In this document: positions 1,455-25,652 of the stretch, one piece after another
Layout: each line of letters begins with the position of its first letter
Numbering within the stretch: position 1 is the stretch's first letter
IMG/VR virus record: IMGVR_UViG_3300042453_004212
Location: 1 to 26,667 of that record
From: a virus
Length of the DNA: 26,667 nucleotides
Strand: one strand, 5' to 3'
Notes under the pieces: generated by a model
Told to the model about the DNA's origin: nothing
Seen by the model: only the letters and a program-made list of their open reading frames with translations
Database searches by the model: none
Made by a program: the position numbers and the translations under genes

Positions 1455-2243
1455 CTACAATTCTTTAAATTTACCCCGCTCATTCTGTATAAGCTTTATT
1501 GGCTCATAGTTTCGAAAATCTATATTTGTTGCAGTATTTTGATTTTGTGATCCTTGAGGCTTTATTGGAGCAAGAGGAAGTTTTGGTCCAGAATCACCAA
1601 ATCTCTTAATTTTTGGTTTATTGATATTATAACCGGGTCTTTGGGGGGTTATATTAATTGCATCCATATCTGGCTTTGGCATTACATTGATGGCATCCAT
1701 ATCTGGCTTTGGCATGATATCGATTGCATCAGTATCGCCCAACATGGGTACTTTTCCAATTAGTGGCTTTCTTTCCGGGAACATTGGGATTCCGGGGCTT
1801 GCTGGCTTTGGATTTTTATCTACACGTGGTTCAAATAGTTTAATTGGTTTTCCTGTACTTTTGTCTATTGCTGGCTTTCTTTTGCCGGGAATCCATCTGT
1901 CTTGGGGTTTGTAATTTGGTCCTACCAATGATCTATCGGGTTCCCAATAACCTTCTTCTCCTTCACGGCCAATTGGTGGTCCAAAGGGGTTTTTTGGATT
2001 TCTTTCCGGGGAATCCGGGGACAAAATACGACGATTTGGAATCGTAGTTGGTGAAGGACTCAGAGAAATTGTATTTGTTGGTCTTTCTTGATTAGGTACA
2101 AATTTAGTCCCATAAAACATACCCTTCTTTCCGTCTTTTTCACCGGAGCGCACTTGGTATTCGTTTAATTGAATCTCAAGAAAATTTACTTTTTCCTGAA
2201 GTTGCTCGGATAGATTCTTGTAGTAGTTTGCTAGGTAGTGCAT
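1455..2243 (-). CDS. Disordered proline-rich protein with 11-residue repeats
   Basis: 262 residues. The first 40 are helical with a heptad-like pattern (NLSEQLQEKVNFLEIQLNEY), suggesting a short coiled coil. The rest is low in hydrophobics and rich in Pro, Lys, Asn and Asp, so probably disordered. Residues around 170-205 hold tandem units of the form MDAINVMPKPD, visible also in the DNA as a 33-bp repeat. A late-type promoter (CTAAATA) ends 6 bp before the ATG and overlaps the stop of the gene before, which encodes a secreted protein. No family is recognised. Late expression suggests a virion, lysis or assembly role; this is inference. Confidence 0.75.
   Translation of the reverse strand: MHYLANYYKNLSEQLQEKVNFLEIQLNEYQVRSGEKDGKKGMFYGTKFVPNQERPTNTISLSPSPTTIPNRRILSPDSPERNPKNPFGPPIGREGEEGYWEPDRSLVGPNYKPQDRWIPGKRKPAIDKSTGKPIKLFEPRVDKNPKPASPGIPMFPERKPLIGKVPMLGDTDAIDIMPKPDMDAINVMPKPDMDAINITPQRPGYNINKPKIKRFGDSGPKLPLAPIKPQGSQNQNTATNIDFRNYEPIKLIQNERGKFKEL
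1660..1715. repeat. 33-bp in-gene tandem repeat
   Basis: The 23-bp core at 1660-1682 recurs exactly at 1693-1715, an offset of 33 bp, and a weaker third copy follows near 1726. It encodes the repeated DAI(N/D)xMPKPDM unit of the minus-strand gene. Confidence 0.8.
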
Positions 2244-2248
2244 AAAAT

Positions 2249-2255
2249 TATTTAG
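2249..2255 (-). promoter_or_regulatory. Late-type promoter motif CTAAATA
   Basis: CTAAATA on the minus strand, 5 bp upstream of the ATG at 2243. The TAA inside it is the stop codon of the upstream gene (2252-2254). Confidence 0.55.
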
Positions 2256-2554
2256 TCCTTAAATTTTATTATTAATTTCTTATTCCATATTCTAATATTC
2301 TCTGCATTTGGGTATAACATCCATGCTAGGTCTAGTATCTCTTGCTCCGATACTTTCTTTCTTGGTTGCTTGGTAGAGTTTCCTATTGGAAGATTACCTT
2401 GCATTCCGTTGTTGAAGTTGTATTCAGGTGCATTGGTAAAGTAGGGAATCTCCATGAGAATATCGTCTATGGGGACTATGTAAGTTTGACCTAGGCTTGG
2501 TCTGGGGGTGAAAAGAAGTATTGCTGCGAAGATGTAAGGAATAAATTTTGTCAT
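2252..2554 (-). CDS. Small exported protein with signal peptide
   Basis: 100 residues. The N-terminus is a clear Sec-type signal: MTKF, a hydrophobic core (IPYIFAAILLF) and a likely cleavage after SLG-Q near residue 23, so the mature part should lie in the periplasm. The mature part has about 77 residues, ending in a basic strand (WNKKLIIKFKD). The start overlaps the stop of the gene before as ATGA. There is no lipobox cysteine, so it is not an obvious outer spanin. Lysis, superinfection exclusion or envelope modification are possible. No family is recognised. Confidence 0.75.
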   Translation of the reverse strand: MTKFIPYIFAAILLFTPRPSLGQTYIVPIDDILMEIPYFTNAPEYNFNNGMQGNLPIGNSTKQPRKKVSEQEILDLAWMLYPNAENIRIWNKKLIIKFKD

Positions 2555-2706
2555 TTTCTTACTTCGTTGGCGTTTTCTTCTTGGGCCACGGATTCGTCGG
2601 TTTCTTCCTCGGCTGGCTCGGTGTCCTCGGGCTTCTTGAATCCCATTGGCTTGTCTAGGTAAACATCATAATTTTCTAAAAATTGTTTGAAACTTTTTCT
2701 GTTCAT
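2551..2706 (-). CDS. Small acidic protein, first gene of the late unit
   Basis: 51 residues beginning MNRKSFKQF at the ATG 2706; a longer frame to 2772 exists, but this start lies directly behind a late motif ATAAATA (2712-2718) and the extension would run through the divergent early promoter. The C-terminal half is very acidic (EDTEPAEEETDES). The gene is translationally coupled to the secreted protein gene through ATGA. Function unknown. Confidence 0.6.
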   Translation of the reverse strand: MNRKSFKQFLENYDVYLDKPMGFKKPEDTEPAEEETDESVAQEENANEVRK

Positions 2707-2711
2707 ATGAG

Positions 2712-2718
2712 TATTTAT
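2712..2718 (-). promoter_or_regulatory. Late-type promoter motif ATAAATA
   Basis: CATAAATA on the minus strand, 5 bp before the ATG at 2706. It lies 3 bp from the -35 box of the plus-strand promoter at 2722, so the two promoters are back to back. Confidence 0.55.
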
Positions 2719-2721
2719 GGC

Positions 2722-2749
2722 TTGACTTTGAGGCTGGGTAGGGTATACT
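2722..2749 (+). promoter_or_regulatory. Early-type promoter TTGACT-16-TATACT
   Basis: -35 at 2722-2727 and -10 at 2744-2749 with a 16-bp spacer. The ATG at 2756 starts 6 nt after the -10 box, where transcription is expected to begin, so the mRNA would be leaderless. Confidence 0.65.
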
Positions 2750-2755
2750 CTGGTT

Positions 2756-2989
2756 ATGGAAAACAAACCCATTCATACTCTGGAATTCACCGAATCTCAG
2801 TTGTTTGAGTTATACGATCTTCTTGACTTTGAGGTCGATGAGTGGTTTGAGAAGATTGACAATCCCTGTGAAGAATTGGCCAAGTATACCACCCGTGAAG
2901 ACAGGGTGAAGATTGTCGATGAAACCATGGGATTGTTTGAAGTTGTAAAGGCAAAAGTTAATCAAATTTTTGCTGAAGAAGAATCTTGA
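2756..2989 (+). CDS. Small acidic hypothetical protein
   Basis: 77 residues, acidic and probably all-helical (ESQLFELYDLLDFEVDEWFEKI). The start sits where the promoter predicts the first transcribed base, and no ribosome-binding sequence is present. The next promoter's -35 box overlaps its stop codon. It resembles the many short early helical proteins of T4-like phages in character only; no family is recognised. Confidence 0.75.
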   Translation: MENKPIHTLEFTESQLFELYDLLDFEVDEWFEKIDNPCEELAKYTTREDRVKIVDETMGLFEVVKAKVNQIFAEEES

Positions 2990-3013
2990 CTTTGTTTGTC
3001 TGAGGTGTATACT
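2986..3013 (+). promoter_or_regulatory. Early-type promoter TTGACT-16-TATACT
   Basis: -35 at 2986-2991 (overlapping the stop of the gene before) and -10 at 3008-3013. The spacer is 16 bp. The next ATG is 11 nt downstream of the -10 box, giving about a 5-nt leader. Confidence 0.6.
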
Positions 3014-3024
3014 CTGACAGTCGA

Positions 3025-3144
3025 ATGGACCAACATCCCCCACAAATTTACTGGTTTGCTCTTTGTGTGTTTCTTCCTGTGATAACCATATTTGTGGGGG
3101 ATCTAATCATCTACTTTATTGAAAAAAGGAATCGCTATGACTAA
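3025..3144 (+). CDS. Very small single-pass membrane protein
   Basis: 39 residues, MDQHPPQIYWF then a hydrophobic stretch of about 22 residues (ALCVFLPVITIFVGDLIIYF) and a charged tail (IEKRNRYD). It starts just behind a promoter and its end overlaps the start of the next gene by 8 bp, the coupling typical of this block. It could be a holin-like or membrane-targeted early protein; function unknown. Confidence 0.55.
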   Translation: MDQHPPQIYWFALCVFLPVITIFVGDLIIYFIEKRNRYD

Positions 3145-3337
3145 AAAAATTGCAAAGAAGAAGGTCGCCGTCAAGTCCAACCCGCAGCCCATGATCCTCA
3201 AGGTATTCCCTTACAAGGGCGTATTGGGTGCAATGGTTGATGTTGCCATGGTTGCCATTCTGATGTCGGGTGCTCTGATGATGGCTGTATCGGCCATTCT
3301 GATGGCAGGCAAGATCACGATCACCGCAGGTAAGTGA
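3137..3337 (+). CDS. Small membrane protein with basic N-terminus
   Basis: 66 residues from the ATG at 3137, preceded by AAAAAAGGAATCGCT, a good ribosome-binding sequence; a TTG start 18 bp earlier is less likely. The N-terminus is lysine-rich (MTKKIAKKKVAVK), followed by a methionine- and alanine-rich hydrophobic segment (residues about 30-60) with two possible membrane passes. The stop overlaps the next ATG (TGATG). Unknown function. Confidence 0.65.
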   Translation: MTKKIAKKKVAVKSNPQPMILKVFPYKGVLGAMVDVAMVAILMSGALMMAVSAILMAGKITITAGK

Positions 3338-3765
3338 TGGAGAAGCATACCCTCGTTCTTGAGGATCTTGAGAAACAGTATCCTCTGTGCTTCAAGCACA
3401 AGGGGTGCTGTATGTATGGGATTGAGATCCAGCCCGGTTGGAACAAAATTATTCATGTTCTTCTTGGGAGACTTGAAGATCACCTTGCTGCCAATCCTGA
3501 GAAGTTTATTGACTGTGAATTTCCATTCCGCATAGATCAGATCAAGGAGAAGTTTGGAACTCTGCGGTTCTATGTGAATGGTGAAGTCGATGAAACAATG
3601 TGGGATTGTATCAACTACGCAGAGGAGCAGAGTGCCAATGTCTGTGAAGTTTGTGCAAAGCGCGGAGTCGTCCATGTCTCAAAGGGTGGCTTCTGGCTTA
3701 AGACTCTCTGCTCTGAGTGTGCGAAGGATGAATACATCCCCTACAACAGAAATATGATGCCATGA
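3337..3765 (+). CDS. Phage zinc-ribbon hypothetical protein
   Basis: 142 residues. The C-terminal third has two cysteine pairs, C103-x2-C106 and C125-x2-C128, which should bind one zinc ion, and the preceding segment KEKFGTLRFYV followed by an EEQSANVCEVC helix-ribbon is a pattern I know from small uncharacterised proteins of many tailed phages. A GTG codon directly before the ATG would add one residue; the ATG overlapping the previous stop (TGATG) is preferred. The role is unknown; a zinc ribbon of this kind could bind nucleic acid or a host protein. Confidence 0.75.
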   Translation: MEKHTLVLEDLEKQYPLCFKHKGCCMYGIEIQPGWNKIIHVLLGRLEDHLAANPEKFIDCEFPFRIDQIKEKFGTLRFYVNGEVDETMWDCINYAEEQSANVCEVCAKRGVVHVSKGGFWLKTLCSECAKDEYIPYNRNMMP

Positions 3766-4085
3766 AGAAGATAAAGCCTGAAGACGTTGCAAGCGAACTG
3801 CGTCTACTTTCCAAGAACTGGTGTCTCAGTCCCGAAGTTATTAATATAATTTCTCACGGTTATGCAAGGATCTGTGAGTTGGAGCGGGAGCGCGATGAGG
3901 CGAGGCGGGAGGTGTGCAGGGATGAAGCGTATCGTCCTTCACCATCACCACCATGCACGGCAAATCAAGTTGCGAATCGGCGTGGTTGGGATTGCTTCAA
4001 GGAGGAATTCTTTGTTGGCGACGATGACCATGCAAAGATGGAAGCCGATTCAAATAATGAGTTGTTTCGTAAAGGACAAATTTAA
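3762..4085 (+). CDS. Hypothetical protein with short coiled coil
   Basis: 107 residues, overlapping the previous gene as ATGA. A charged helix in the middle (ELERERDEARREV) suggests a coiled coil; the C-terminal part is acidic and polar. GC content is higher than that of the following genes. No family recognised. Confidence 0.7.
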   Translation: MKKIKPEDVASELRLLSKNWCLSPEVINIISHGYARICELERERDEARREVCRDEAYRPSPSPPCTANQVANRRGWDCFKEEFFVGDDDHAKMEADSNNELFRKGQI

Positions 4086-4369
4086 TGTGCAACGATGAAG
4101 AATTTTACACTGCTCCCGAACCAAAATACAAGAGACAAATGAAATGTCTTGATGAGGTTGAGTATTACAATCTCAAGGGAGAAATTGATAGAGTTAGAAA
4201 CTCACCTTATGTTTGGTGGGTTCGTGAAAAGATGTTCAGCAACTACATTGAAATAAATTTTGCTGTGACTGTTGAAGCATGTGAAGATTTGACTGCTGTG
4301 GATGGATGGCAAGTAATCGCAGATAAAATTATCGAAGATATTAAACTCGCTTACAAGAATAGAAAATAA
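4085..4369 (+). CDS. Hypothetical protein
   Basis: 94 residues; its ATG overlaps the TAA of the gene before by one base (TAATG). It is mixed alpha/beta in composition with an aromatic cluster (YVWWVREKMF). No membrane segment and no known motif are seen. Confidence 0.7.
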   Translation: MCNDEEFYTAPEPKYKRQMKCLDEVEYYNLKGEIDRVRNSPYVWWVREKMFSNYIEINFAVTVEACEDLTAVDGWQVIADKIIEDIKLAYKNRK

Positions 4370-4370
4370 A

Positions 4371-4823
4371 ATGGCTATCGTACCTACATCTACAATCTAT
4401 AATTCAAACGGTCAGACTTTCTCTCGCTCCGAGTATCAGGGAGCAATTTATCAGGAAGTCACCTTCACCGATAGGCTTGTGTTCGATACTCAATTTACGA
4501 TCACAGAGCCCATCAACGAATCTATTTCAAACAATACGGTTTCAAATTATCCTGAAACTGCAAATAAATACTTCATGGGATCTTTTGACGGATTTTGGGT
4601 CCATAAGATCTTCAACGGTGGAAGGCTCGTAATGACTGTTCAGACGGTGGATCAGGATATGTTCATTCCTGTTGCCCATGATCGCATTGAGAGCGTCTGT
4701 ATGCAGGTTTCTACCGAATTGAATGGAAGCGATTGTGAGCCTCCTGATGTTCCTGCACCAGGAGTTCTTGCAATTCTTGGAATTGCTGCTATACTTACTA
4801 AGAACACTTTTAGAAAAGAGTAA
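4371..4823 (+). CDS. Protein with PEP-CTERM-like C-terminal sorting signal
   Basis: 150 residues. The body (1-120) is polar and beta-rich (many Thr, Ser, Asn, Phe). The C-terminus has the three-part layout of a PEP-CTERM signal: VPAPG at 127-131, a hydrophobic helix (VLAILGIAAIL) and a short basic end (FRKE). In bacteria such tails are cut by exosortase during export. No N-terminal signal peptide is visible, which is unusual for that class. It lies one base after the previous stop and just before a gene for a small membrane protein. Chance resemblance or a plain C-terminal membrane anchor cannot be excluded. Confidence 0.65.
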   Translation: MAIVPTSTIYNSNGQTFSRSEYQGAIYQEVTFTDRLVFDTQFTITEPINESISNNTVSNYPETANKYFMGSFDGFWVHKIFNGGRLVMTVQTVDQDMFIPVAHDRIESVCMQVSTELNGSDCEPPDVPAPGVLAILGIAAILTKNTFRKE

Positions 4824-4826
4824 AAT

Positions 4827-4991
4827 ATGAAACAGATTCTAAGCAAACTTATGGTTCCCATGCTCATTCTCCTTGCCATCAACTTAGTTGGTTTTGTATT
4901 CCACAAGAACTATGAGGGTGCTGTGGTCGGAAGCGTAGTTGGAATGATTGTTGCTTTCCTTGCTCTTGAAATCAAGGCTAAGTACGAGTGA
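4827..4991 (+). CDS. Small membrane protein
   Basis: 54 residues with two hydrophobic segments (about 9-24, VPMLILLAINLVGFVF, and 32-48, AVVGSVVGMIVAFLALE) separated by a short charged turn (HKNYEG). It follows the PEP-CTERM-like gene by 3 bp and precedes tRNA-Glu by 3 bp. The two-helix layout is holin-like but not diagnostic. Confidence 0.65.
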   Translation: MKQILSKLMVPMLILLAINLVGFVFHKNYEGAVVGSVVGMIVAFLALEIKAKYE

Positions 4992-4994
4992 ACT

Positions 4995-5068
4995 GGTCCC
5001 TTCGTCTAGTCGGTCTAGGACACGGCCCTTTCAAGGCCATAACAGGGGTTCGAATCCCCTAGGGATCA
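4995..5068 (+). tRNA. tRNA-Glu (TTC)
   Basis: A full cloverleaf can be drawn: acceptor GGTCCCT with AGGGATC, anticodon loop CTTTCAA with anticodon TTC, and T arm AGGGG-TTCGAAT-CCCCT. CCA is not encoded. It lies within the plus-strand early block. Confidence 0.92.
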
Positions 5069-5095
5069 TTTAAAATATGCTCTACATATTTGTAG

Positions 5096-5854
5096 ATGCA
5101 TTATAAGACAGTTTTTATTTCTGATCTACATCTTGCTTCTAAAAAAGCAAAAGCAAAAACAATTCTTTCTTTTTTAAAAGAAAATGAATTTCACGAAATA
5201 TTTTTGGTAGGCGACATCATAGACATATGGAGATTTCGTCAAGCCTTCTCAATGAATTTTGAAAAACAAAATTTACATGTGGAAATAATTGAATGTTTTT
5301 TAAAATTATCCCGCAAAGGAACAAAAATTCATTACATATATGGAAATCATGATGAATTTTTATCCAAATTCATTGACCATGAACTTTTTGGCAATATATT
5401 CCTACATGAAAGAATTGATTACGTTTCTTCAAATGGAAAAAAGTATTTGGTGATGCATGGTCACCAATTTGATTTGTTGACAAAATATCCAATAAGTTCA
5501 TATCTATACAAATTAGGTGATTGGGCTTATGAATGGTTGCTTTCAATAAATGAAGTATTTAACTGGTTTAGAAAAATTTTGGGAATGAAATATTGGTCAA
5601 TCTCAAAATACATAAAGATAAAAGTAAAGAAGGCAGCTCAGTTCATAGAGAGTTTTGAAGAAGTTATTTGCAAGTATGCAAAAGACAGAGGATATGATGG
5701 TGTTATCTGTGGTCATATACATGATCCAAAAATAACAACTAAAAATGAAACTCTTTACATAAATTGTGGTTGCTGGACAGAGAAAGAAAATTGTTCTTTC
5801 GTTTATGAAGATGAAAATGGAGAATTAAAACTTGGAAGAAAAGAAAAGATTTGA
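5096..5854 (+). CDS. LpxH-like metallophosphoesterase (UDP-2,3-diacylglucosamine pyrophosphatase family)
   Basis: 252 residues, close to the usual length of the family. All five metal-site blocks of the calcineurin-like fold are present: D10-x-H12 (FISDLHL), G39-D40 (VGDIID), G83-N84-H85-D86, H121-G122-H123 and G206-H207-x-H209. The order, the KGTKIHYIYGNHD context and the IDIW segment match UDP-2,3-diacylglucosamine hydrolases, which make lipid X in lipid A synthesis at the inner membrane. Such a gene points to a Gram-negative host and would be an auxiliary metabolic gene acting on lipopolysaccharide. It is more AT-rich than the genes upstream, which hints at a separate acquisition. It could instead be a relative with another phospho-substrate. 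Confidence 0.82.
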   Translation: MHYKTVFISDLHLASKKAKAKTILSFLKENEFHEIFLVGDIIDIWRFRQAFSMNFEKQNLHVEIIECFLKLSRKGTKIHYIYGNHDEFLSKFIDHELFGNIFLHERIDYVSSNGKKYLVMHGHQFDLLTKYPISSYLYKLGDWAYEWLLSINEVFNWFRKILGMKYWSISKYIKIKVKKAAQFIESFEEVICKYAKDRGYDGVICGHIHDPKITTKNETLYINCGCWTEKENCSFVYEDENGELKLGRKEKI

Positions 5855-5984
5855 TAACTGGTATGATCCCATCATACTGTTTTTTTATTTGAGCATATTT
5901 GCTTCTATAGCAATTTACTCAGTGATCGTTGGAACCATATATGGTTTCTTCGTAAAGGAAGAAAAAACTGGTTGTAAAAATTGA
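5832..5984 (+). CDS. Small membrane protein, TTG start
   Basis: 50 residues (MEEKKRFDNWYDP, then a hydrophobic helix of about 27 residues and a KEEKTGCKN tail). The frame has no ATG, but a TTG at 5832 is preceded by GGAG with 9-nt spacing, and the gene overlaps the end of the LpxH-like gene by 23 bp. The next promoter's -35 box overlaps its stop codon. One membrane helix is clear; the role is unknown. Confidence 0.45.
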   Translation: MEEKKRFDNWYDPIILFFYLSIFASIAIYSVIVGTIYGFFVKEEKTGCKN

Positions 5985-6008
5985 CATTGGAGTGGTAGGG
6001 TGTATAAT
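5981..6008 (+). promoter_or_regulatory. Early-type promoter TTGACA-16-TATAAT
   Basis: Perfect consensus boxes at 5981-5986 and 6003-6008 with a 16-bp spacer. The ATG chosen for the next gene (6015) lies 6 nt after the -10 box. Confidence 0.75.
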
Positions 6009-6014
6009 ATGCGT

Positions 6015-6311
6015 ATGGAAGACAAAATTTTTTATGGAATGTCCATTGAGCGCTACAAGTGTCTCATGGAAGGAATAGGCCCATGCATTCGTCTTTCTGA
6101 AGATGAGATGAAAGAAGGCTGGCATTTCTGTGATGAATGGGATGATCTTCTCATTCATCCCGATTCCGATGAATTTCAATTTTGTAAATGTTCTCACATG
6201 AAAAAGTTTAAAACTCCTGAAAGAGAGCAAGCATATCAAAAGAGATGGAATAAATCAAATGATGCTCTTGACAGGCTTTCTGATCTAGATGAAGAATTGG
6301 GGTTACACTAA
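6015..6311 (+). CDS. Conserved phage hypothetical protein
   Basis: 98 residues from the ATG at 6015. Earlier in-frame codons lie inside the promoter and cannot be transcribed from it. The segment LSEDEMKEGWHFCDEWDDL followed by CKCSH is a pattern I know from small uncharacterised phage proteins. Four or five Cys and His residues in that part might bind a metal. The message would be leaderless. Confidence 0.75.
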   Translation: MEDKIFYGMSIERYKCLMEGIGPCIRLSEDEMKEGWHFCDEWDDLLIHPDSDEFQFCKCSHMKKFKTPEREQAYQKRWNKSNDALDRLSDLDEELGLH

Positions 6312-6556
6312 TGACTTTACCTCATGAAGAATATTATAGTTTAGTTGCAGCAAAAAACTTTTTATATGATCTTTTGAATTGTGCACATACTCCGAAAGTT
6401 CCATCTGATATTCGTGACAGAGCTGCGAGAGTTTTGAAGCATTTTCCTATGCAACATAGATTGAATGAAATTTATAAAGACCACATTAATTCCAATCGTT
6501 CCATTTTAAATGAATATAAAAATGGCGGTGGGTGGGCCAAAGGAAAAGATGAATAA
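6311..6556 (+). CDS. BPSL0761-like hypothetical protein
   Basis: 81 residues. The start MTLPHEEYYSL and the later motif TPKVPSDIRDRAARVLKHFP are characteristic of the BPSL0761 family of short proteins found in prophages and phages, whose role is unknown. Helical and soluble. The start overlaps the previous TAA (TAATG). Confidence 0.7.
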   Translation: MTLPHEEYYSLVAAKNFLYDLLNCAHTPKVPSDIRDRAARVLKHFPMQHRLNEIYKDHINSNRSILNEYKNGGGWAKGKDE

Positions 6557-6698
6557 CGAGAAAAAATATTTTACTTATTACGATGCTCTATTTGCATCAG
6601 CAATTTTATGTGTTACATTTTTGATGCAGTTAGTTATATTTGAAAGATTAGAAGATAGGGTCAAGGAACTTGAAAAGAAAGTATTAGTCAATGAGTAA
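6549..6698 (+). CDS. Small membrane protein with C-terminal coiled coil
   Basis: 49 residues from the ATG at 6549, which overlaps the end of the gene before by 8 bp; a start at 6510 would run far into that gene. The layout is a polar head (MNNEKKYFTYY), one membrane helix (DALFASAILCVTFLMQLVIF) and a heptad helix (RLEDRVKELEKKV). Such architecture suits a bitopic oligomeric membrane protein; function unknown. Confidence 0.6.
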   Translation: MNNEKKYFTYYDALFASAILCVTFLMQLVIFERLEDRVKELEKKVLVNE

Positions 6699-7086
6699 GC
6701 CATTCGGATATTCGTATTTTTTGGACATGTACAATTGTCGTATTGGTGCTGCTGATGATCTGGAGCTTCACTATCGCTTTCTTGAGCGAGTTGTTGATAA
6801 GATCGGTATGACCCGAATGAGTCAACCATTTGTCATTCACGGCCCTACAAAAGATGGAAAAGAACTCTATCCCGATAAATTGGGTGTTAGTGCTTGGGTT
6901 CCTCTAATTGAAAGTGGTATCCAAATTCACTCAATCGAACCAACACATTTCATCACTCTTGATGTATATTCCTGTAATAAGTTTGACAAGATGATTATTC
7001 TTGATTATGCAAGAGAATGTTTTGGTTTTGATCGCCACGAAGAACACTTCTTTGTTCGTGGTATGGGGTATGGAAATATTGGATGA
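6691..7086 (+). CDS. speD: S-adenosylmethionine decarboxylase family, pyruvoyl-dependent (SpeD/SpeH type)
   Basis: 131 residues, the length of prokaryotic class 1b AdoMet decarboxylases. The maturation and active-site residues known from Thermotoga maritima can be placed with identical spacing: S67 (GVS), the Glu74-Ser75 self-cleavage site (LIE-S), H80 (IH) and C95 (DVYSC). Cleavage would turn Ser75 into the pyruvoyl cofactor. The His normally after that Ser is Gly here. Family members decarboxylate AdoMet for spermidine synthesis; some phage and bacterial members have been shown to use arginine or ornithine, so the substrate is open. The gene overlaps both neighbours by 4-8 bp, next to an RNA methyltransferase gene that also uses AdoMet. 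Confidence 0.82.
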   Translation: MSKPFGYSYFLDMYNCRIGAADDLELHYRFLERVVDKIGMTRMSQPFVIHGPTKDGKELYPDKLGVSAWVPLIESGIQIHSIEPTHFITLDVYSCNKFDKMIILDYARECFGFDRHEEHFFVRGMGYGNIG

Positions 7087-7643
7087 ATATGGAAACTCGC
7101 AACCTTATTGATCACTATAAATATTGGACAGATGACGCGATCAGAGCTGATCTTGAGACTAAGCGCCATAACTTTTCTGTTATCTGCTGCAACATTGGTA
7201 ACGATTTTAATATTGCAACCATTATACGGAATGCTAATGCGTTTCTGGCGAAAGAAGTAGTTATCTATGGGAATAAGAAATACGATAGGCGAGGGACTGT
7301 CGGTACTCATCACTACACAAACTTCCGTCATGTCAAAAGCATTGACAATCTCGGCTCCTACATTGAAGAAATTGTTTCCCAGTATGAAGGCAAGGTTAAA
7401 CTATTGGGAATTGATAATGTTTGTGAAGCAAAAGACATAAATGCATTTGACTTTGACCCAAATGTGCATTATATTATGATCTTTGGGCAGGAGCAAATCG
7501 GTGTTCCAAGAGACGTTCTAGATATGTGTGATGATCTTCTTTACATTCCTCAGTATGGTTCTGTAAGAAGCATCAATGTTGGTACTGCCTCTGGCATCAT
7601 AATGAATAATTATTGTGCCAAGGTTCACTCCTTCGTGGTGTAA
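7083..7643 (+). CDS. SpoU/TrmH-family (SPOUT) RNA 2'-O-methyltransferase
   Basis: 186 residues, close to TrmH-type length. The three SPOUT motifs are present in order: motif 1 with N43 and R49 (FNIATIIRNANAF), motif 2 FGQEQIGVP (134-142) and motif 3 IPQYGSVRSINVGTA (155-169), which form the trefoil-knot AdoMet site. The target is probably tRNA or rRNA ribose. The last five codons, including the stop, overlap the acceptor and D-arm part of tRNA-Gln (7629-7643). It overlaps the AdoMet decarboxylase gene by ATGA. A methyltransferase co-transcribed with tRNA genes may tune phage or host tRNAs. Confidence 0.88.
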   Translation: MNMETRNLIDHYKYWTDDAIRADLETKRHNFSVICCNIGNDFNIATIIRNANAFLAKEVVIYGNKKYDRRGTVGTHHYTNFRHVKSIDNLGSYIEEIVSQYEGKVKLLGIDNVCEAKDINAFDFDPNVHYIMIFGQEQIGVPRDVLDMCDDLLYIPQYGSVRSINVGTASGIIMNNYCAKVHSFVV

Positions 7644-7699
7644 CGGTAACACGGGAGACTTTGGATCTCTCTTTCTAGGTTCGAATCCTAGCGAAGGAA
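7629..7699 (+). tRNA. tRNA-Gln (TTG)
   Basis: Acceptor TCCTTCG pairs with CGAAGGA; the anticodon loop is CTTTGGA with anticodon TTG; the T arm is TAGG-TTCGAAT-CCTA. CCA is not encoded. Its first 15 bases are also the last codons of the SpoU-type gene, so processing of the tRNA removes the end of that message. Confidence 0.93.
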
Positions 7700-7702
7700 T
7701 TT

Positions 7703-7969
7703 ATGACAGATAAAAAAATAAAACCAGTCGGCAAATGGATTCTCGCAAAGTCTTTGATCGGTGGTCAAAAAACCACTGCTGCAGGAATCATATACAACGA
7801 GAAGTCATCCTCAAAAATCATTCCTGCAAAGGTAGAGTCAATCGGTAATAAACTCACCGAAGACATTCAGGTTGGCGATGTAATCTGGTGGGATGTCAGC
7901 AAGATCAAGGATGGTTACGCTGGTAACCATGTAGTTCATCAAGATTGGGTTTCATTCGTGGAGAGATAA
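7703..7969 (+). CDS. groES: GroES-like co-chaperonin (Cpn10)
   Basis: 88 residues, slightly shorter than bacterial GroES (about 97). It follows the fold from end to end: KPVGKWILAK strand, a mobile-loop-like GGQKTTAAGIIYNEK with the hydrophobic tripeptide (IIY), PAKVESIGNK, VGDVIWWDVSKI, and the final strand VHQDWVSFVER. Phage co-chaperonins such as T4 gp31 replace host GroES to let GroEL fold phage capsid protein. The assignment rests on pattern, not on high identity. It sits 3 bp after tRNA-Gln. Confidence 0.8.
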   Translation: MTDKKIKPVGKWILAKSLIGGQKTTAAGIIYNEKSSSKIIPAKVESIGNKLTEDIQVGDVIWWDVSKIKDGYAGNHVVHQDWVSFVER

Positions 7970-7970
7970 T

Positions 7971-8291
7971 ATGGCAAAAAAGAAAATTAAAAAAATGGTC
8001 ACAAAAACAATTCCTTGGAAGATCACTCCATTCTTTATTGACATGGATGAAAAACAATTCCAAGAGAGAATCAGCATCATGCCTGTCAAGATTCTTCTGA
8101 ACGAGTATGCAATTGCTTGTGAAGAGATCGGGAAGATTATTGCCAAGTTTCCAGACAAATACTATGACAAGAAGGAATATCTTGATATCTCAGCCCGTGC
8201 ATATGACCTAAAGATGCAAGTGATGAAGAGATTCCATGAACTTGAAGATCATGTTGAAGTCATAGATTACTACAGAAACATAGATTGCTAA
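7971..8291 (+). CDS. Hypothetical protein, last gene of early block
   Basis: 106 residues, lysine-rich start (MAKKKIKKMVTK), then mostly helical. It begins one base after the GroES-like gene ends and is followed by the hairpin region 8297-8345 between converging genes. No family recognised. Confidence 0.7.
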   Translation: MAKKKIKKMVTKTIPWKITPFFIDMDEKQFQERISIMPVKILLNEYAIACEEIGKIIAKFPDKYYDKKEYLDISARAYDLKMQVMKRFHELEDHVEVIDYYRNIDC

Positions 8292-10644: not shown

Positions 10645-11211
10645 TTATTTAGTTGGTTCTATATCGTAGTAATAATTGTCATCATGGCCATCAATAATCC
10701 AGCGATCACTTTCTCCTTCACATTTCCAAATTTTATTATCAACTTTGAAATCTGGTTTTTCCGGAAATGGTTTTGTTACAAAAGACATATTCTTCCAAAA
10801 TATTCTATTGTTTGGCTGTAGTGTATAGTTTCCATTATCCAATGCAATCATATGAAGACACTTGTATTGAGTAGGTTCCTCTGAATAGGCGTTTCTGTAC
10901 CAATCAAAAGTCATCACATAATCACCCCAGTGTTCAGTCTTATCTTTTAGAACAACTTTTGCTCTGCAATCAAATAGAGCATCATATTCAACCATTGATA
11001 CATTTTCATGAAAACAATCCCATAATTGCAAATGGTCCAAGGGCATCAAAGGAGCATCCGGTTTCCAACAAAGCATGTGAATTGGAACTCTGCTACGAAC
11101 AATCCCGTAATCAGTCATGACATGGAATGTCATAGCATAACCAGCACAAGATTGTGCTCCAAATACTAAAACCTTGTCAAACTCTCCTTTATGCTGCTCA
11201 TGTTGATACAT
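10645..11211 (-). CDS. Hypothetical protein downstream of tRNA-Tyr
   Basis: 188 residues from the ATG at 11211, preceded by AAAGAGCAC as a ribosome site. An ATG at 11262 would add 17 residues but lies 3 bp after the tRNA end without a ribosome site; still longer frames run through tRNA genes and are artefacts. The protein is soluble, rich in Trp, Tyr, His and Cys (HWGDYVMTFDWYRNAY), with an all-beta look. No family is recognised. It should be transcribed with the two tRNA genes from 11457. Confidence 0.72.
   Translation of the reverse strand: MYQHEQHKGEFDKVLVFGAQSCAGYAMTFHVMTDYGIVRSRVPIHMLCWKPDAPLMPLDHLQLWDCFHENVSMVEYDALFDCRAKVVLKDKTEHWGDYVMTFDWYRNAYSEEPTQYKCLHMIALDNGNYTLQPNNRIFWKNMSFVTKPFPEKPDFKVDNKIWKCEGESDRWIIDGHDDNYYYDIEPTK
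10646..10652 (-). promoter_or_regulatory. Late-type promoter motif CTAAATA before the tmRNA transcript
   Basis: CTAAATAATTTTAT on the minus strand ends just before GCGTAGT (10638), so a late transcript would begin almost at the first base of the structured RNA. The TAA in it is also the stop of the upstream gene (10645-10647). Confidence 0.5.
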
Positions 11212-11264
11212 GTGCTCTTTACGAAGATAACAATAAAAATGTGGTACGTTAACATTATGCATAA

Positions 11265-11346
11265 TGCGAGCTGAAGGATTCGAACCTTCGTAGGCAATGC
11301 CAGCAGATTTACAGTCTGCCCTCGTTGACCGCTTGAGTAAACTCGC
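11265..11346 (-). tRNA. tRNA-Tyr (GTA)
   Basis: Acceptor GCGAGTT with AGCTCGC, anticodon stem GCAGA/TCTGC with loop CTGTAAA, long variable arm (TGGCATTGCCTAC) as expected for bacterial tRNA-Tyr, T arm GAAGG-TTCGAAT-CCTTC. CCA not encoded. Confidence 0.94.
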
Positions 11347-11349
11347 CAA

Positions 11350-11421
11350 AGCCACCTGTGGGATTCGAACCCGCAACCTCTGCTTTACAAAAGCAAGGCT
11401 CTACCGTTGAGCTAAGGTGGC
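11350..11421 (-). tRNA. tRNA-Thr (TGT)
   Basis: Acceptor GCCACCT with AGGTGGC, D arm GCTC-AACGGTA-GAGC, anticodon loop TTTGTAA (TGT). One mismatch in the T stem (GCGGG/CCCAC). It is the first gene of the minus-strand tRNA unit, 3 bp before tRNA-Tyr. Confidence 0.92.
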
Positions 11422-11464: not shown

Positions 11465-14146
11465 TTACAAAGGTGCCAAAACAGGAGATGAAGAAATGCT
11501 GACTCCTAATGTTGGTCCTGTGGTTCCTAACCACATTCCAGGTCCGGTAGCACTCAATACAGTATTACCATCAACAGTTACTATATAATTTGGATTACCT
11601 GTAATTCTCCACCACCAAGTACTACCATTCAATCCGGGTGCACCACTTGCAACCCATTCTGCATTCCAGGGTATTTTTGAATAATCAGCTGTTGTTAAAG
11701 TAAATCCACCAATTTTATCTAAAGTATCTTGTACTGTGTCGTCCAATTGCTTTAGTTCGTTAACGTGAGCAGTGGATCCTGACATAAAATATGTTTTTAT
11801 TAAAGATTGAGAAAAATTACTATTATTAATATCAAGTGTTGCTAAACATACACCAGTAACACCATAATCAATAAATGTTGTTGGATTAAATAATCCAATT
11901 CCTTTTGTACCATGTAATAACACATGACGCACAAATTCAAAATAATAAGCAGAGTTGCCAGAAACTTCAGTATAATACACATGTTCTTTTGAATTATATC
12001 CAGTAGATGAATCTGCAAATCCAATACGGGGACCTTTATGCCAAAAATTTGCCGTTCCACCTTTTGTTCCACATAAACCCAATTCTTGTATTTTATCACG
12101 AACTTCTTGCGGACTTATATCAGGTCCAGACCAAACTACAGGTAATAAATCTTGTCTTTCCATAGACCAAGACACCGGGCCAATCCAAGGTGTTAAAGGA
12201 ATGTTTAAAGCATTTCTCTTTGCTGAACGGACTTCTCCCATTGCTTGCAAAAAACTTGTCCATGGTCCTATTGTTAATGAAGCACCTGACCCAAAATATT
12301 CTAATGTTGTTGGATCAGAACCATTTATAGACCAAACTTTTGAATAATCAGAAACAAAATCTTGTACCAAAACTTTCAGATAACCATACAAAACTGGAGA
12401 AGAAGCATTTCCAACATATGCTCCCCTTGGAAGAGGGTGACCATTCATATCATGTGGACCACCACACATTCCAGGATCTGTAATATAATCATCATAATTT
12501 GATACTGTTATATCGGGATATTCAGATATTAATTTATTAGTAAATGCTATATCAAGATTTTTTGCATCATATGTTTGTGCAGCATAATGCCAACCTAAGA
12601 AATATGGTTTTGGTGAATAACTATAATTATAACTTGCTGGACCACTGGTAACACCACCAACACCTTCATATATGTCTTTCCAAGAAGTTATTCCATACCA
12701 AGATTGATTATATTTTGCATTTCCAGATATTAGAGAATTTGCTATTGATGCATTATTGGCTACAAAGTCTAAATCAAAAAATGTTCCCTCTTTATCCATA
12801 AAAACAAAGTCTAGAGTAACACCTGATGATTTCATGTAATCTACCATTTCACCCCATACTTTTTGCATTGCACTAATTCCAGTTACAGGCCATGGATTCG
12901 GATAATAATTTGAAATAGGGCTTGTATATGATAAATTAGAATCATCATTTAGATAAGATCTAGAACTTCCACCACTAAAACTCAATTTATCATCATCAAA
13001 AAGGATGTGATAATTTGTATTTAAAAAATTAGGCTGTATTGCTCTTTTTCTTATTGGTAACGCTTTTAATTTTTCAAATTGTTTTCTAGACCAATTTGAT
13101 TGTCCAACATTTTGTGTGTATGGTGGTTCAAATACAGAATTAGAAAATGGATTTACCAATCCTATTGAATAGGATATTCCGTAAGAATCACCAAAAGCTA
13201 ACCAAGCAGAATTTCCAACAGTATATTGTAATTCTGTATTAGAATCATTATAATAATATTTTGTAACTAATAAATCAGAAGAAGCACAGCCAAATGATGT
13301 ACTAACGTAATTTGTTGTGGTAGTTCCTTTTATTAATTGAGGACCATACACATACCAAGTTGATCCCCCTGATTTATTATTTTCACTTATCATATAACAA
13401 GAAACGTGTTCCTGTGTTTGACCTAGATAAAATTCATAACCAAATCTTTGCCACCCACTAAAAGAAGCTGATTCTGGATATTGAATTGTTTGTTCAATTG
13501 ATGGTCCTCTTGCAGAAGTTGGTGGTGGCAAAACTTGATTCATTGCCATTGCAAATGAAGCGGGTCCAGTATTGGATGATGTAAGATTAATCAGTCTAAA
13601 ATTAGCTAATGTTGCACCTGTTGTTACATTTAACCAAAATGAAAATATGTAAGTATTTCCTGATTCTAAATTATAAGAACTGGTTCTCCACGCAACATAT
13701 TCATTTAAAGTTGTTACTGAATTTATTGCAAATGCACCTGTACCAGAAAACGGATCAGTTATATTTTCAGAAATTCTAGATGTATTGGTTCCTTGACCCG
13801 TCCAATTATAATTTGTTTCTTTAATATTTGAACTAGAAGTAACAAGATTGCCTGTTGAACCAGATCCCCAAATTCTTTGATTATCGGATCCAGATATATG
13901 GGGCCAATCCCATGCGTAAAGATATATTAATGGTCTCGATTCCTCTTCTGGTGGCGTATATACTGCAATTGGACCAGCATATCCAGAAAATCCGCTGTAA
14001 TTATACGAGACTACTACAAAATAATATGTTTGTCCACCACTTAAGTTTCCAAAGAAATAACTTGTAGAACCACCAGTACCTGAAACAGGTCCTACTGTTG
14101 CACCTAGTGTGTAAGTGTTACCTTCAATGTATATTTGTTCTGACAT
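11465..14146 (-). CDS. Large adhesin-like virion protein with possible glycosidase fold
   Basis: 893 residues. Residues 1-70 form the second half of a fibronectin III domain (GGQTYYFVVVSYNYSGFSG); the first half is at the end of the upstream gene, in the same frame. Residues about 90-290 look like a jelly-roll, carbohydrate-binding type domain (NLESGNTYIFSFWLNV, FSGWQRFGYEFY). The region about 400-800 has the alternating strand/helix pattern and Trp-rich acidic loops of a TIM-barrel glycosidase (LDFVFMDKEGTFFDLDF, WHYAAQTY, PWIGPVSWSMERQDLLPVVW); no glycosidase family can be named. A late motif precedes it. Likely a tail or fibre component that binds or cuts surface sugar. Confidence 0.7.
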   Translation of the reverse strand: MSEQIYIEGNTYTLGATVGPVSGTGGSTSYFFGNLSGGQTYYFVVVSYNYSGFSGYAGPIAVYTPPEEESRPLIYLYAWDWPHISGSDNQRIWGSGSTGNLVTSSSNIKETNYNWTGQGTNTSRISENITDPFSGTGAFAINSVTTLNEYVAWRTSSYNLESGNTYIFSFWLNVTTGATLANFRLINLTSSNTGPASFAMAMNQVLPPPTSARGPSIEQTIQYPESASFSGWQRFGYEFYLGQTQEHVSCYMISENNKSGGSTWYVYGPQLIKGTTTTNYVSTSFGCASSDLLVTKYYYNDSNTELQYTVGNSAWLAFGDSYGISYSIGLVNPFSNSVFEPPYTQNVGQSNWSRKQFEKLKALPIRKRAIQPNFLNTNYHILFDDDKLSFSGGSSRSYLNDDSNLSYTSPISNYYPNPWPVTGISAMQKVWGEMVDYMKSSGVTLDFVFMDKEGTFFDLDFVANNASIANSLISGNAKYNQSWYGITSWKDIYEGVGGVTSGPASYNYSYSPKPYFLGWHYAAQTYDAKNLDIAFTNKLISEYPDITVSNYDDYITDPGMCGGPHDMNGHPLPRGAYVGNASSPVLYGYLKVLVQDFVSDYSKVWSINGSDPTTLEYFGSGASLTIGPWTSFLQAMGEVRSAKRNALNIPLTPWIGPVSWSMERQDLLPVVWSGPDISPQEVRDKIQELGLCGTKGGTANFWHKGPRIGFADSSTGYNSKEHVYYTEVSGNSAYYFEFVRHVLLHGTKGIGLFNPTTFIDYGVTGVCLATLDINNSNFSQSLIKTYFMSGSTAHVNELKQLDDTVQDTLDKIGGFTLTTADYSKIPWNAEWVASGAPGLNGSTWWWRITGNPNYIVTVDGNTVLSATGPGMWLGTTGPTLGVSISSSPVLAPL

Positions 14147-14155
14147 GTTCTATTT

Positions 14156-14162
14156 TATTTAT
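14156..14162 (-). promoter_or_regulatory. Late-type promoter motif ATAAATA inside the gene junction
   Basis: GATAAATA on the minus strand lies in the 24-bp gap between the two fibronectin III gene halves, 9 bp before the ATG at 14146. Confidence 0.55.
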
Positions 14163-14170
14163 CCTTATCA

Positions 14171-15595
14171 TTAACGATAAAATATCTTAAATCCATCTTC
14201 ATTCGAAGAATTGTCTGTCCATGCTAAAGTTACTCCATTTTCATTTATACTCAAAGATGTAAGCCCCGAAGGTGCTTCGGGATATGCAGAAGGATTATAA
14301 TAGAAAATTTTGAATCCAAGTTCGTTATTAGAGTTATCTTGCCATGTAAGAGTTGTGCCATTTGATAATGGTTCACTTGCAGTTAAACCACTTGGTGCCA
14401 GAGGTATGCTTGTCAATTCTGCATATTTGTTCTGTGCATTTACTAATGCATTTGCCATCGCCAAATAAGCAGCCGAAAATCCTGCTTTATTAGCCGCAGT
14501 TCCAGTTCCTCTATTGGAATAAAAATAAGTTGGCTTTATATCTGTCTCTGAAAGCATGTATTGCATATTTGGCAATATAGTGGATGAATGCAAATCTCCT
14601 ACTCCTGCAGTTGTTAACAAAGACATAAGAGAAAATAGCTCACCATCTTTCATGTACAAAAGTAAACCAGATGAATCGCCTTCCCATAACTGAACTTCTT
14701 CGGCTTCATCAAAAATCATTTTGATAAATGGCCCTCTTTTATAAACATAACTGGGTGAAGGCCACAGTGAATTTGGTAATATATCAAGTTGTCTATAACC
14801 TAATCTCAACTTTGATACAGGCTGTATTGTGTCATTACCACCCCAAAAATATACATCATTTACAGGAAACTCATAAACTATGTTTCCAAGATCAAATTCA
14901 TCTGTTCCATTTGCAGTAACTAAGTATTGCGTTAAACCAGAAACTTGTGCTTGTGTCAAAACACCCAAAGGCGAAATCGCTCTTAATTTTTTCCCAGTAA
15001 ATATATTTGGTGAAGAAACTGCTGGTAATCTTGAAAAAGAGTGGTCTGTAGTGGTTATTTGATAATATGTTGCACCTAAACTATAACCAGGTGCCTGTGC
15101 TTCACATGCACCACAACCACCAGACCAACCTTGAAAATATCTTGGAATATCTACATCAGGTTCGTATGTTACACAATTATAAACCCCTCTAAAATTATCA
15201 TAATATGTCTTACTAGAAAATCCTGCATCCCAGTAATATCTCCCGTATGATGCGGTCAATCCTGTTTCTTTTACTAAAGGAAATTGAGCTGTAGTATCAC
15301 ATGGTTTATCTGGAGAAAAGTGTGTGCAGGCACCCAACATAGTATCCGATACCCACCAAAACAAAGGATAACCAATATTATAATAATTTGGGTATAATCC
15401 CAAAGAAGTTCCGGGTGGAGGGGCACCACAATTTCCTACAACAGTCCAATCTCTATATCTCAAAGAAATTGGTTGATATGACGCACTGGCACCATAAATC
15501 AGACAATTGGAATTTAAAGCTATGGGATAACCAGTGTTACCCGCACCATATAGATAAACATCATGCAAAGTTGGATCATAATTTTTGAAATACAT
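14171..15595 (-). CDS. Virion-type protein ending in fibronectin III half-domains
   Basis: 474 residues. The first 380 are rich in Tyr, Gly, Pro, Trp and Cys (for example CGAPPPGTSLGLYPNYYN, GWSGGCGACEAQ) and look like an extracellular beta structure without known family. The end carries two tandem copies of the A-B-C part of a fibronectin III domain (APSGLTASEPLSNGTTLTW and APSGLTSLSINENGVTLAW, each ending in NE-x-GFKIFY), neither completed. The following gene supplies the missing strands. A possible late motif lies 40 bp upstream at 15635-15641. Probably part of the host-recognition apparatus. Confidence 0.7.
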   Translation of the reverse strand: MYFKNYDPTLHDVYLYGAGNTGYPIALNSNCLIYGASASYQPISLRYRDWTVVGNCGAPPPGTSLGLYPNYYNIGYPLFWWVSDTMLGACTHFSPDKPCDTTAQFPLVKETGLTASYGRYYWDAGFSSKTYYDNFRGVYNCVTYEPDVDIPRYFQGWSGGCGACEAQAPGYSLGATYYQITTTDHSFSRLPAVSSPNIFTGKKLRAISPLGVLTQAQVSGLTQYLVTANGTDEFDLGNIVYEFPVNDVYFWGGNDTIQPVSKLRLGYRQLDILPNSLWPSPSYVYKRGPFIKMIFDEAEEVQLWEGDSSGLLLYMKDGELFSLMSLLTTAGVGDLHSSTILPNMQYMLSETDIKPTYFYSNRGTGTAANKAGFSAAYLAMANALVNAQNKYAELTSIPLAPSGLTASEPLSNGTTLTWQDNSNNELGFKIFYYNPSAYPEAPSGLTSLSINENGVTLAWTDNSSNEDGFKIFYR

Positions 15596-16030: not shown

Positions 16031-16102
16031 GCGGCTGTAGTATAATGGCCATTACGCTAGCCTTCCAAGCTTGATATGAGAGTTCGATTCTCTCCAGCCG
16101 CA
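16031..16102 (+). tRNA. tRNA-Gly (TCC)
   Basis: Acceptor GCGGCTG with CAGCCGC, anticodon loop CTTCCAA (TCC), T arm GAGAG-TTCGATT-CTCTC. CCA not encoded. The next gene starts 3 bp downstream. Confidence 0.93.
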
Positions 16103-25052: not shown

Positions 25053-25059
25053 TATTTAG
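25053..25059 (-). promoter_or_regulatory. Late-type promoter motif CTAAATA
   Basis: CTAAATAATTT on the minus strand, 7 bp before the ATG at 25045; contains the TAA stop (25056-25058) of the gene before. Confidence 0.58.
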
Positions 25060-25652
25060 CCTTCTGGAGATGCGTTATATTTTTCCAGCGGGTTATACAA
25101 TTTTAGATTTTTATAGGTTTTTGCCTTACCAATGGCTATTTTTCTTAGATTTGCATAGTCTAAGTTATTATTTTTGGCAAATTCAGCAATACTTGGGACA
25201 GTTATAATTTCATTTGTGTTTATGTCTTGAAATATTGCTGATTGTGTTATTTGAACCTTTTTCTTTTTAGGTTTCTTGGCCTTTATTTTGGCTCCCTCGG
25301 TTTCCTTTACTGGGCGTATTTCAACTGCTGTCCAGCCTTTATATGTCTTTCTTTTACCATTTAAAAGTTCACAAATTTTTACAGCAGTCATACCATTTTG
25401 TCTGCCAAACTCTGTCATGTTGGTAAAAAATGTTTTTTCCCCTGTATCAACTCTTTTTAACCAATAACCATTTTGTTGTTCTACTGGACTTTTCCAGACC
25501 CAATAAAGACCGTCTTGAATAAAAAAACCACCATGTTCTTGAACAAACTTGGCTCGGAACTTAGTGGCTTTTGAATTATCATTCATCTGAGTCCACAGTT
25601 TAGATCCTTTACTGTTGACCTGATCTTCTATTGTTTTTACATCCTTATACAT
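25056..25652 (-). CDS. Protein with two NUMOD-like DNA-binding modules, no nuclease domain seen
   Basis: 198 residues. Two copies of a module known from homing endonucleases (NUMOD-type helix-turn-helix) can be read: residues about 64-112 (TEFGRQNGMTAVKICELLNG followed by K-x-YKGW) and 138-187 (SIAEFAKNNNLDYANLRKIA followed by K-x-YKNL), joined by a lysine-rich linker (KAKKPKKKK). There is no GIY-YIG or HNH motif, so it may be a DNA-binding regulator or the remnant of a homing enzyme. It overlaps the nuclease gene upstream by 8 bp. Confidence 0.7.
   Translation of the reverse strand: MYKDVKTIEDQVNSKGSKLWTQMNDNSKATKFRAKFVQEHGGFFIQDGLYWVWKSPVEQQNGYWLKRVDTGEKTFFTNMTEFGRQNGMTAVKICELLNGKRKTYKGWTAVEIRPVKETEGAKIKAKKPKKKKVQITQSAIFQDINTNEIITVPSIAEFAKNNNLDYANLRKIAIGKAKTYKNLKLYNPLEKYNASPEG

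Follow-up and report, generated by a model that had tools for sequence, protein, structure and literature searches.

Donor-strand complementation in chaperone-usher pili fills the gap in an incomplete Ig-like sandwich with a segment from the subunit that follows, and the acceptor and donor ends of the subunits lead to chains. Work attributed to Dutta et al. in 2005 (Protein Sci 14:2838) is said to have cut the engineered domain FNfn10 in two, at the loop that leads from strand C to strand D or C', giving fragments that reassemble with high affinity. The principle of a fibronectin type III (FN3) domain built from two chains already exists in animals, in the self-association module Fn3nc (SAS1) of HCF-1 and HCF-2; as described there, a half Fn3 on one chain interdigitates with its complement on a second one, and the resulting Fn3 keeps the two chains non-covalently associated after proteolysis, and the HCF-2 half is able to bind the HCF-1 half (PMC6582346, citing Park et al. 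2012). In the branched tailspikes of Ackermannviridae (CBA120 TSP1-4, with XD domains), an anchor carries several exchangeable receptor-binding proteins (PMC8825819, PMC11414711). In the branched lateral tail fibres of DT57C, as that account has it, the two genes of LtfA and LtfB replace a single fibre gene, LtfB hangs on LtfA, and the N-termini of LtfA add strands to the sheets of LtfC (PMC10713586). Here we describe two neighbouring genes, A and B, in 26,667 nucleotides (nt) of viral DNA (IMG/VR virus record IMGVR_UViG_3300042453_004212, positions 1 to 26,667; this whole stretch is called the window). Gene A stops after FN3 strands A-B-C and gene B opens at strand C'. In our view it is highly probable that A and B are separately translated adhesin proteins of the virion, joined non-covalently by a two-chain FN3, so that an anchor with interchangeable tips forms a branched adhesin.

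We call the ABC half at the end of a protein the socket and the C'EFG half at the start of a protein the plug. As far as the HCF source goes, the likeness lies in complementary FN3 halves on two chains, with binding in the phage a matter of inference; the difference is that HCF-1 has one gene, proteolysis and a one-to-one pair, whereas the phages have separate genes, tandem sockets, adaptors and alternative tips. Since the phage halves are separate genes, with stops, variable frames and no proteolysis of a precursor, the system would work like HCF without being a member of it. FNfn10 is a laboratory construct, whereas the phage halves are natural and evolving. The Ackermannviridae complex is similarly branched, its N-terminal docking parts being conserved and its tips variable, but docking there relies on whole XD domains of the T4 gp10 kind, whereas here one domain would be shared between the partners. 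DT57C also has a two-gene branched fibre; the part of the account that deals with LtfA-LtfB describes no split FN3, and so far as is known LtfA and LtfB are joined by a different mechanism. In the pili one strand is donated, whereas in the phages it would be about half a domain, four strands against three. A literature search, limited in subscription journals, found no report of a split FN3 joint or gene connector in phages.

One FN3 domain across two genes

The preliminary description of the window had placed one FN3 domain across two genes in the same frame, 24 nt apart, and the open reading frames (ORFs), the sequence and the matches to FN3 profiles bear this out. Gene A ends in ...NEDGFKIFYR (GVTLAWTDNSSNEDGFKIFYR) and gene B starts with MSEQIYIEGNTYTLGATV... 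(MSEQIYIEGNTYTLGATVGPVSGTGG...). Five in-frame stops had been assigned to the gap; four are located there (TGA, TAA, TAA and TAG), while the fifth is the TAA of gene A itself. The new ATG seen for gene B is real, and each plug gene has its own. The late motif claimed for the gap is not significant, with four RATAAATA found against 5.4 expected and four TATAAATA against 2.2 expected; as the counts of the candidate motifs show no enrichment, a late promoter at the gap was rejected. What had been overlooked is a second ABC half in tandem in gene A. Neither of the two tandem halves is followed by strands C' to G within A. As read from separate ORFs with their own starts, the two complementary half-domains appear to sit on separate polypeptides.

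A six-frame search that reads through stops gives a Pfam fn3 match over the cut-off across the junction only (13967-14275, 32 bits). On the translated A-B fusions, Pfam fn3 (PF00041, cut-off 25) scores 43.4 bits for the window and 30.2 bits for the related contig L001. Gene A alone reaches 21.8 bits over profile positions 2-37, under the cut-off, and has no Pfam match other than fn3; gene B alone has no Pfam match. A hidden Markov model (HMM) of 89 positions was built from ten complete FN3 domains, with every split half excluded. The A halves of the window match its positions 1-35, and the N-terminus of B matches 38-89. The ABC halves of several phages match positions 1 to 35-38, and most C'EFG halves match from 37-39 to 89, which places the cut at the C-C' loop. 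Most concatenations of ABC and C'EFG halves span positions 1-89. Copy 2 of the window concatenated with B scores 58.8 bits, compared with 39.1 and 22.9 bits singly; no shuffled C'EFG half scores above 7.2 bits, compared with 22.9 for the real B half. Two divergent plugs of L036 match only partly (3.1 bits for a tip of 895 residues; positions 60-88 for an adaptor of 109 residues). The FN3 core residues are kept in all halves.

Structure prediction

As a proxy for the complex, we modelled the window junction with AlphaFold2 (AF2) as a covalently linked chain, with the stops read as Gly and with unpaired half-domain alignment rows. The two halves are predicted to fold together. The fusion gives one FN3 with all strands and a predicted local distance difference test score (pLDDT) of ~95 over copy 2 and the N-terminus of B, so that the linked halves are predicted to form a seven-stranded FN3 β-sandwich. 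Copy 1, for which there were no alignment rows, is unstructured in this model. Foldseek matches the fusion to the FN3 6pol_A (template modelling score, TM, 0.83) and VIA-align to the FN3 7y8s_B (Z 13.3, root-mean-square deviation 2.4 over 99 residues). An HCF-1 entry is absent among the structural matches listed for the fusion, which is uninformative either way. The preliminary description had considered that each half might fold alone into an unrelated domain; this was not seen, the B half having a pLDDT of ~50-60 when modelled in B alone and ~93 with the ABC half present, in two runs whose alignments differ.

Recurrence and arrangement of the halves

Relatives were obtained by scans of IMG/VR and are metagenomic contigs, and 17 records were examined for both halves. 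Both half types are present in ten of the 17 and neither in the other seven. Two pairs of records are near-duplicates, so the ten half-bearing records represent eight distinct loci; in these, a C'EFG half opens 19 proteins (from residues 1-16 onward), and 13 proteins have ABC halves at their end. The record L001 has an anchor of 435 residues with one ABC half, then a tip of 829 residues; L002 and L035 have single-half anchors as well. In L002/L038 an anchor of 200 residues is followed by a tip of 867 residues, and a second anchor (618 residues, complete FN3 domains and one free ABC half) by a tip of 282 residues; an additional plug protein has 301 residues. L013 has a two-ABC anchor and then two tips (814 and 864 residues). 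L037 has an adaptor of 294 residues with the plug at its start and the socket at its end. L036 has a three-socket anchor, adaptors of 398 and 109 residues (C'EFG first, ABC last) and a 728-residue protein with an internal plug; its free sockets and plugs are equal in number (5:5). One anchor apparently carries docking sites for several tips, with two sockets and two tips in L013 and three sockets in L036. The system, as judged by sequence, exceeds one split gene and has several sockets, adaptors and several tips.

The 109-residue protein of L036 (3777-4106, minus strand) consists of hardly more than a C'EFG half and, behind it, an ABC half, that is, a circularly permuted FN3, and also occurs in L059 (5589-5918); it could be polymer-forming or an adaptor. 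The 728-residue protein (1579-3765, minus strand) has by eye an N-terminal GDSGTP motif like that of trypsin-like proteases and, besides its internal C'EFG half, a C-terminal part like SGNH hydrolases. In a wide scan, the motif DNS..E..FKIYY was found in one more contig of the same system (L059) and in two unrelated ones (L053, L056); in L053 a phage protein of 1531 residues (3549-8144, minus strand) carries a single ABC-like FN3 half in its middle part and, by eye, a Hint-like domain at the C-terminus. The tip gene of L027/L040 lies in several frames (L040 7744-10580), probably from assembly errors or decay. In L038 (6850-6863), L037 (9001-9015) and L036 (14165), a short tip made of an EFG half and a jelly roll precedes a separate protein of ~1200-1250 residues. 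These longer proteins begin where longer tips go on, a second conserved gene cut, which probably lies between domains. The idea that the cut between tip D and such a protein splits the last jelly-roll strand was dropped, as the AF2 model of B supports no strand there.

No match was found in 50,697 cultured-phage records searched with A, B, the tip plugs, the anchor and the fused protein of L017, in 84,980 prokaryote species genomes scanned with a D-type plug, or in a single-sequence scan with B.

Constant joint and variable tip

Comparison of the window with L001 gives, over the 66 codons of the plug, a nonsynonymous rate (dN) of 0.034 and a synonymous rate (dS) of 1.03, with 92% amino acid identity, which places the plug under strong purifying selection, while residues 90-780 of B are 33% identical; residues 1-390 of A are 99% identical. 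The paralogous tips D and E of L038 have plugs that are 84% identical, with 31% identity in the remaining sequence. The plugs of L013 tip 2 and the L002 tip are 92% identical and their bodies 54%. The joint is kept constant while the payload is replaced, as docking parts would be. With the joint constant and the part behind it variable, the phages would be able to exchange tips, add sockets and extend with adaptors.

Socket 1 of L013 resembles the L002 socket (32/37), and its tip 2 has the L002 plug, whereas the likeness to L002 is lower for socket 2 (23/37) and tip 1 (63%). The order a-b / b-a looks like the outcome of inserting a socket-tip unit at the cut. In the window, copy 2 is 21/37 identical to the only socket of L001 and is an extra half; a second tip is absent from the window record.

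Fused relatives and the origin of the split

Relatives are both fused and ALTERNATIVELY cut. L017 and L018 encode a single protein of 1602 residues. The anchor module of L013 A makes up its residues 18-90 (E 5e-20), and the tip body comes straight after, with no FN3 between them; the fusion indicates that in relatives anchor and tip work as a single unit. The cut in this tip lies elsewhere in L016, L019 and L020, where the upstream protein ends in what are residues 96-139 of L017 and the downstream protein corresponds to residues from 146 onward. This cut lies inside a jelly-roll domain that resembles carbohydrate-binding modules (CBM_4_9 in L017, below the cut-off). Taken with the FN3 cut, it means that the boundary of anchor and tip is set within a β-sandwich domain in two ways, and the jelly-roll cut would be a second type of joint on the same principle. 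The proposal that one adhesin gene underwent fission is well supported by the split in independent assemblies and by the fused anchor and tip of L017, which has no FN3 at the join. As for relatives with a fused gene, the anchor-tip fusion was found, but no ancestor in which this very joint is an unbroken FN3. Rejoining by complementation, also proposed earlier, gains good support from halves that abut on the FN3 profile and from a plug that is conserved while the tip body has diverged.

Proposed assembly and alternatives

In the two-chain FN3 that we propose, the tail of A (strands A, B and C) would stay an unfinished socket until the plug comes. The N-terminus of B (strands C', E, F and G) would supply the missing half, and both would fold into one FN3 β-sandwich, with the plug held non-covalently in its socket and the division falling at the C-C' loop. 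Tandem sockets of two or three ABC halves would branch the adhesin; adaptors, whose opposite ends bear a plug and a socket, would lengthen the chain. The sequences contribute the anatomy of the halves, their complementarity on the profile, recurrence, conservation, the adaptors and the varied frames. Several points weigh against the proposal. That the halves bind between chains in the virion, with A proximal and B distal, is something we infer, and the presence of A and B in the virion is itself suggested by their CBM-like and FN3 content. Since the AF2 proxy is covalently linked, co-folding is seen on one chain only, and since the alignment put homologous halves on copy 2, AF2 cannot tell copy 1 from copy 2 as the partner of B. 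Outside L036 the ratios of sockets to plugs are 1:1, 1:1, 2:1 (window), 2:3, 2:3, 3:4 and 1:2; the unequal counts are possibly due to partial contigs.

Recoding by readthrough, frameshifting or bypassing could yield a single A-B protein with an ordinary FN3, and the genes of the window and L001 are indeed in frame, with short gaps of 24 and 12 nt. We regard recoding as extremely unlikely, given five in-frame stops in the window, gaps between adjacent sockets and plugs of 24, 12, 5, 1 and -1 nt in all three frame relations, and an ATG at the same place in each plug gene. Moreover, eight plug-first genes follow a tip or other gene and have no socket before them (e.g., L013 B2 and the 294- and 301-residue proteins of L037 and L038), so a ribosomal event could not join them to an ABC-ending gene. 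That an assembly or sequencing error split one gene, a possibility raised in the preliminary description, has next to no chance of being true: although these are metagenomic contigs, and the B body of L040/L027 is frameshifted, the same split recurs in independent assemblies with differing gap sequences and dS near 1, and this recurrence refutes it.

The halves might also be vestiges of an old FN3 broken by gene fission, remnants without interaction. Fission relics are common and orphan sockets exist (copy 2 of the window), but a dN/dS of ~0.03 in the plug, core residues kept in all halves and the recurrence of tandem sockets and adaptors make this very unlikely. Self-pairing, in which ABC halves (tandem or trimer neighbours) or C'EFG halves form homo-oligomeric β-sandwiches and A is not joined to B, would fit tail fibres, which are often trimeric, and the tandem ABC halves. 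We consider it quite unlikely, because both half types are co-present or co-absent in all 17 records, the anchors of L001, L002 and L035 have a single half, AF2 pairs ABC with C'EFG, and the 109-residue adaptor has one half of each type.

Beyond the two-chain FN3 itself, we suggest tentatively, at slightly less than an even chance, an evolvable plug-socket code: orthogonal split-FN3 pairs, adaptors that branch or extend, and units of socket and tip inserted at the cut as in L013, by which tips are gained or swapped with the anchor undisturbed. If the halves bind, these phages would have a natural split-domain connector system of separate genes, diversified into apparently several types of socket and plug. 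It would explain how host-binding tips are swapped and added, make a clear prediction of binding and specificity, and offer ready-made connector pairs. Phage tails commonly carry FN3 domains, for the most part in a role that is unexplained; joining of subunits would, if the halves bind, be one directly testable role. For annotation, a truncated FN3 at the end of a gene may represent a working half-domain rather than a fragment.

Gene B and the phage

The features of the junction and of the jelly-roll cut are listed in the table.

Table. Features of genes A and B in the window and of the alternative cut in relatives
Feature	Record	Position	Strand	Description	Basis
Gene A	window	14171..15595	-	474 residues, presumed anchor; C-terminal end is two tandem ABC half-FN3s	ORF; ABC-half HMM; 99% identity to L001 over residues 1-390
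ABC half-FN3 copy 1	window	14291..14407	-	A residues 397-435	ABC-half HMM; orthologue of the single L001 half, 30/37 identical
ABC half-FN3 copy 2	window	14174..14284	-	A residues 438-474; extra copy, runs to the stop codon	HMM; Pfam fn3 profile 2-37
Gene A stop (14171-14173) and 24-nt in-frame gap (14147-14170)	window	14147..14173	-	Four more in-frame stops	Sequence
C'EFG half-FN3 (plug)	window	13949..14146	-	Gene B residues 1-66	HMM; purifying selection vs L001; AF2 fusion model
Gene B	window	11465..14146	-	893 residues, presumed host-binding or glycan-active tip	ORF; AF2; Foldseek
Jelly roll resembling CBM16 and CBM4	window	13328..13732	-	B residues 139-273	Foldseek; CBM_4_9 in homologue L017, below cut-off
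α/β region, possibly glycoside-hydrolase-like barrel (weak)	window	11711..13213	-	B residues ~312-812	Low-confidence AF2; weak Foldseek matches
Jelly-roll cut	L016	5137-10058		Upstream protein ends after NLISFSQDLNLNTIPGT, downstream protein starts MPTPVWSYQNIKSV	Contiguous in L017
Jelly-roll cut	L019	2053-11861		As for L016	Contiguous in L017
Jelly-roll cut	L020	80-11852		As for L016	Contiguous in L017

The jelly roll of B matches CBM16 (2zez, E 1.6e-4) in Foldseek and is also CBM4-like. The α/β region, modelled by AF2 with low confidence, shows weak whole-length matches to GH51 and GH36 and a match to DUF4832 in BFVD; a β domain forms the C-terminal part. B is likely a glycan-binding or glycan-cutting tip. 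Relatives of the neighbouring nucleotidyltransferase gene occur in T4-like cyanophages and in Caulobacter phage Cr30, which suggests that the window phage is a T4-like myovirus.

Five tRNA genes (Glu, Gln, Tyr, Thr and Gly; 4994-5069, 7629-7699, 11265-11346, 11350-11421 and 16031-16102) are scattered among the genes of the window, two of them directly downstream of gene B. A homing endonuclease gene of HNH/NUMOD type (25056-25652) adjoins a gene of 785 residues with a weak C-terminal HNH match. The 243-residue gene at 10645-11376 is a TTG-extended ORF that matches phrog_3704 (named ferredoxin); as the start annotated for it falls within the tRNA pair, translation probably begins further downstream.

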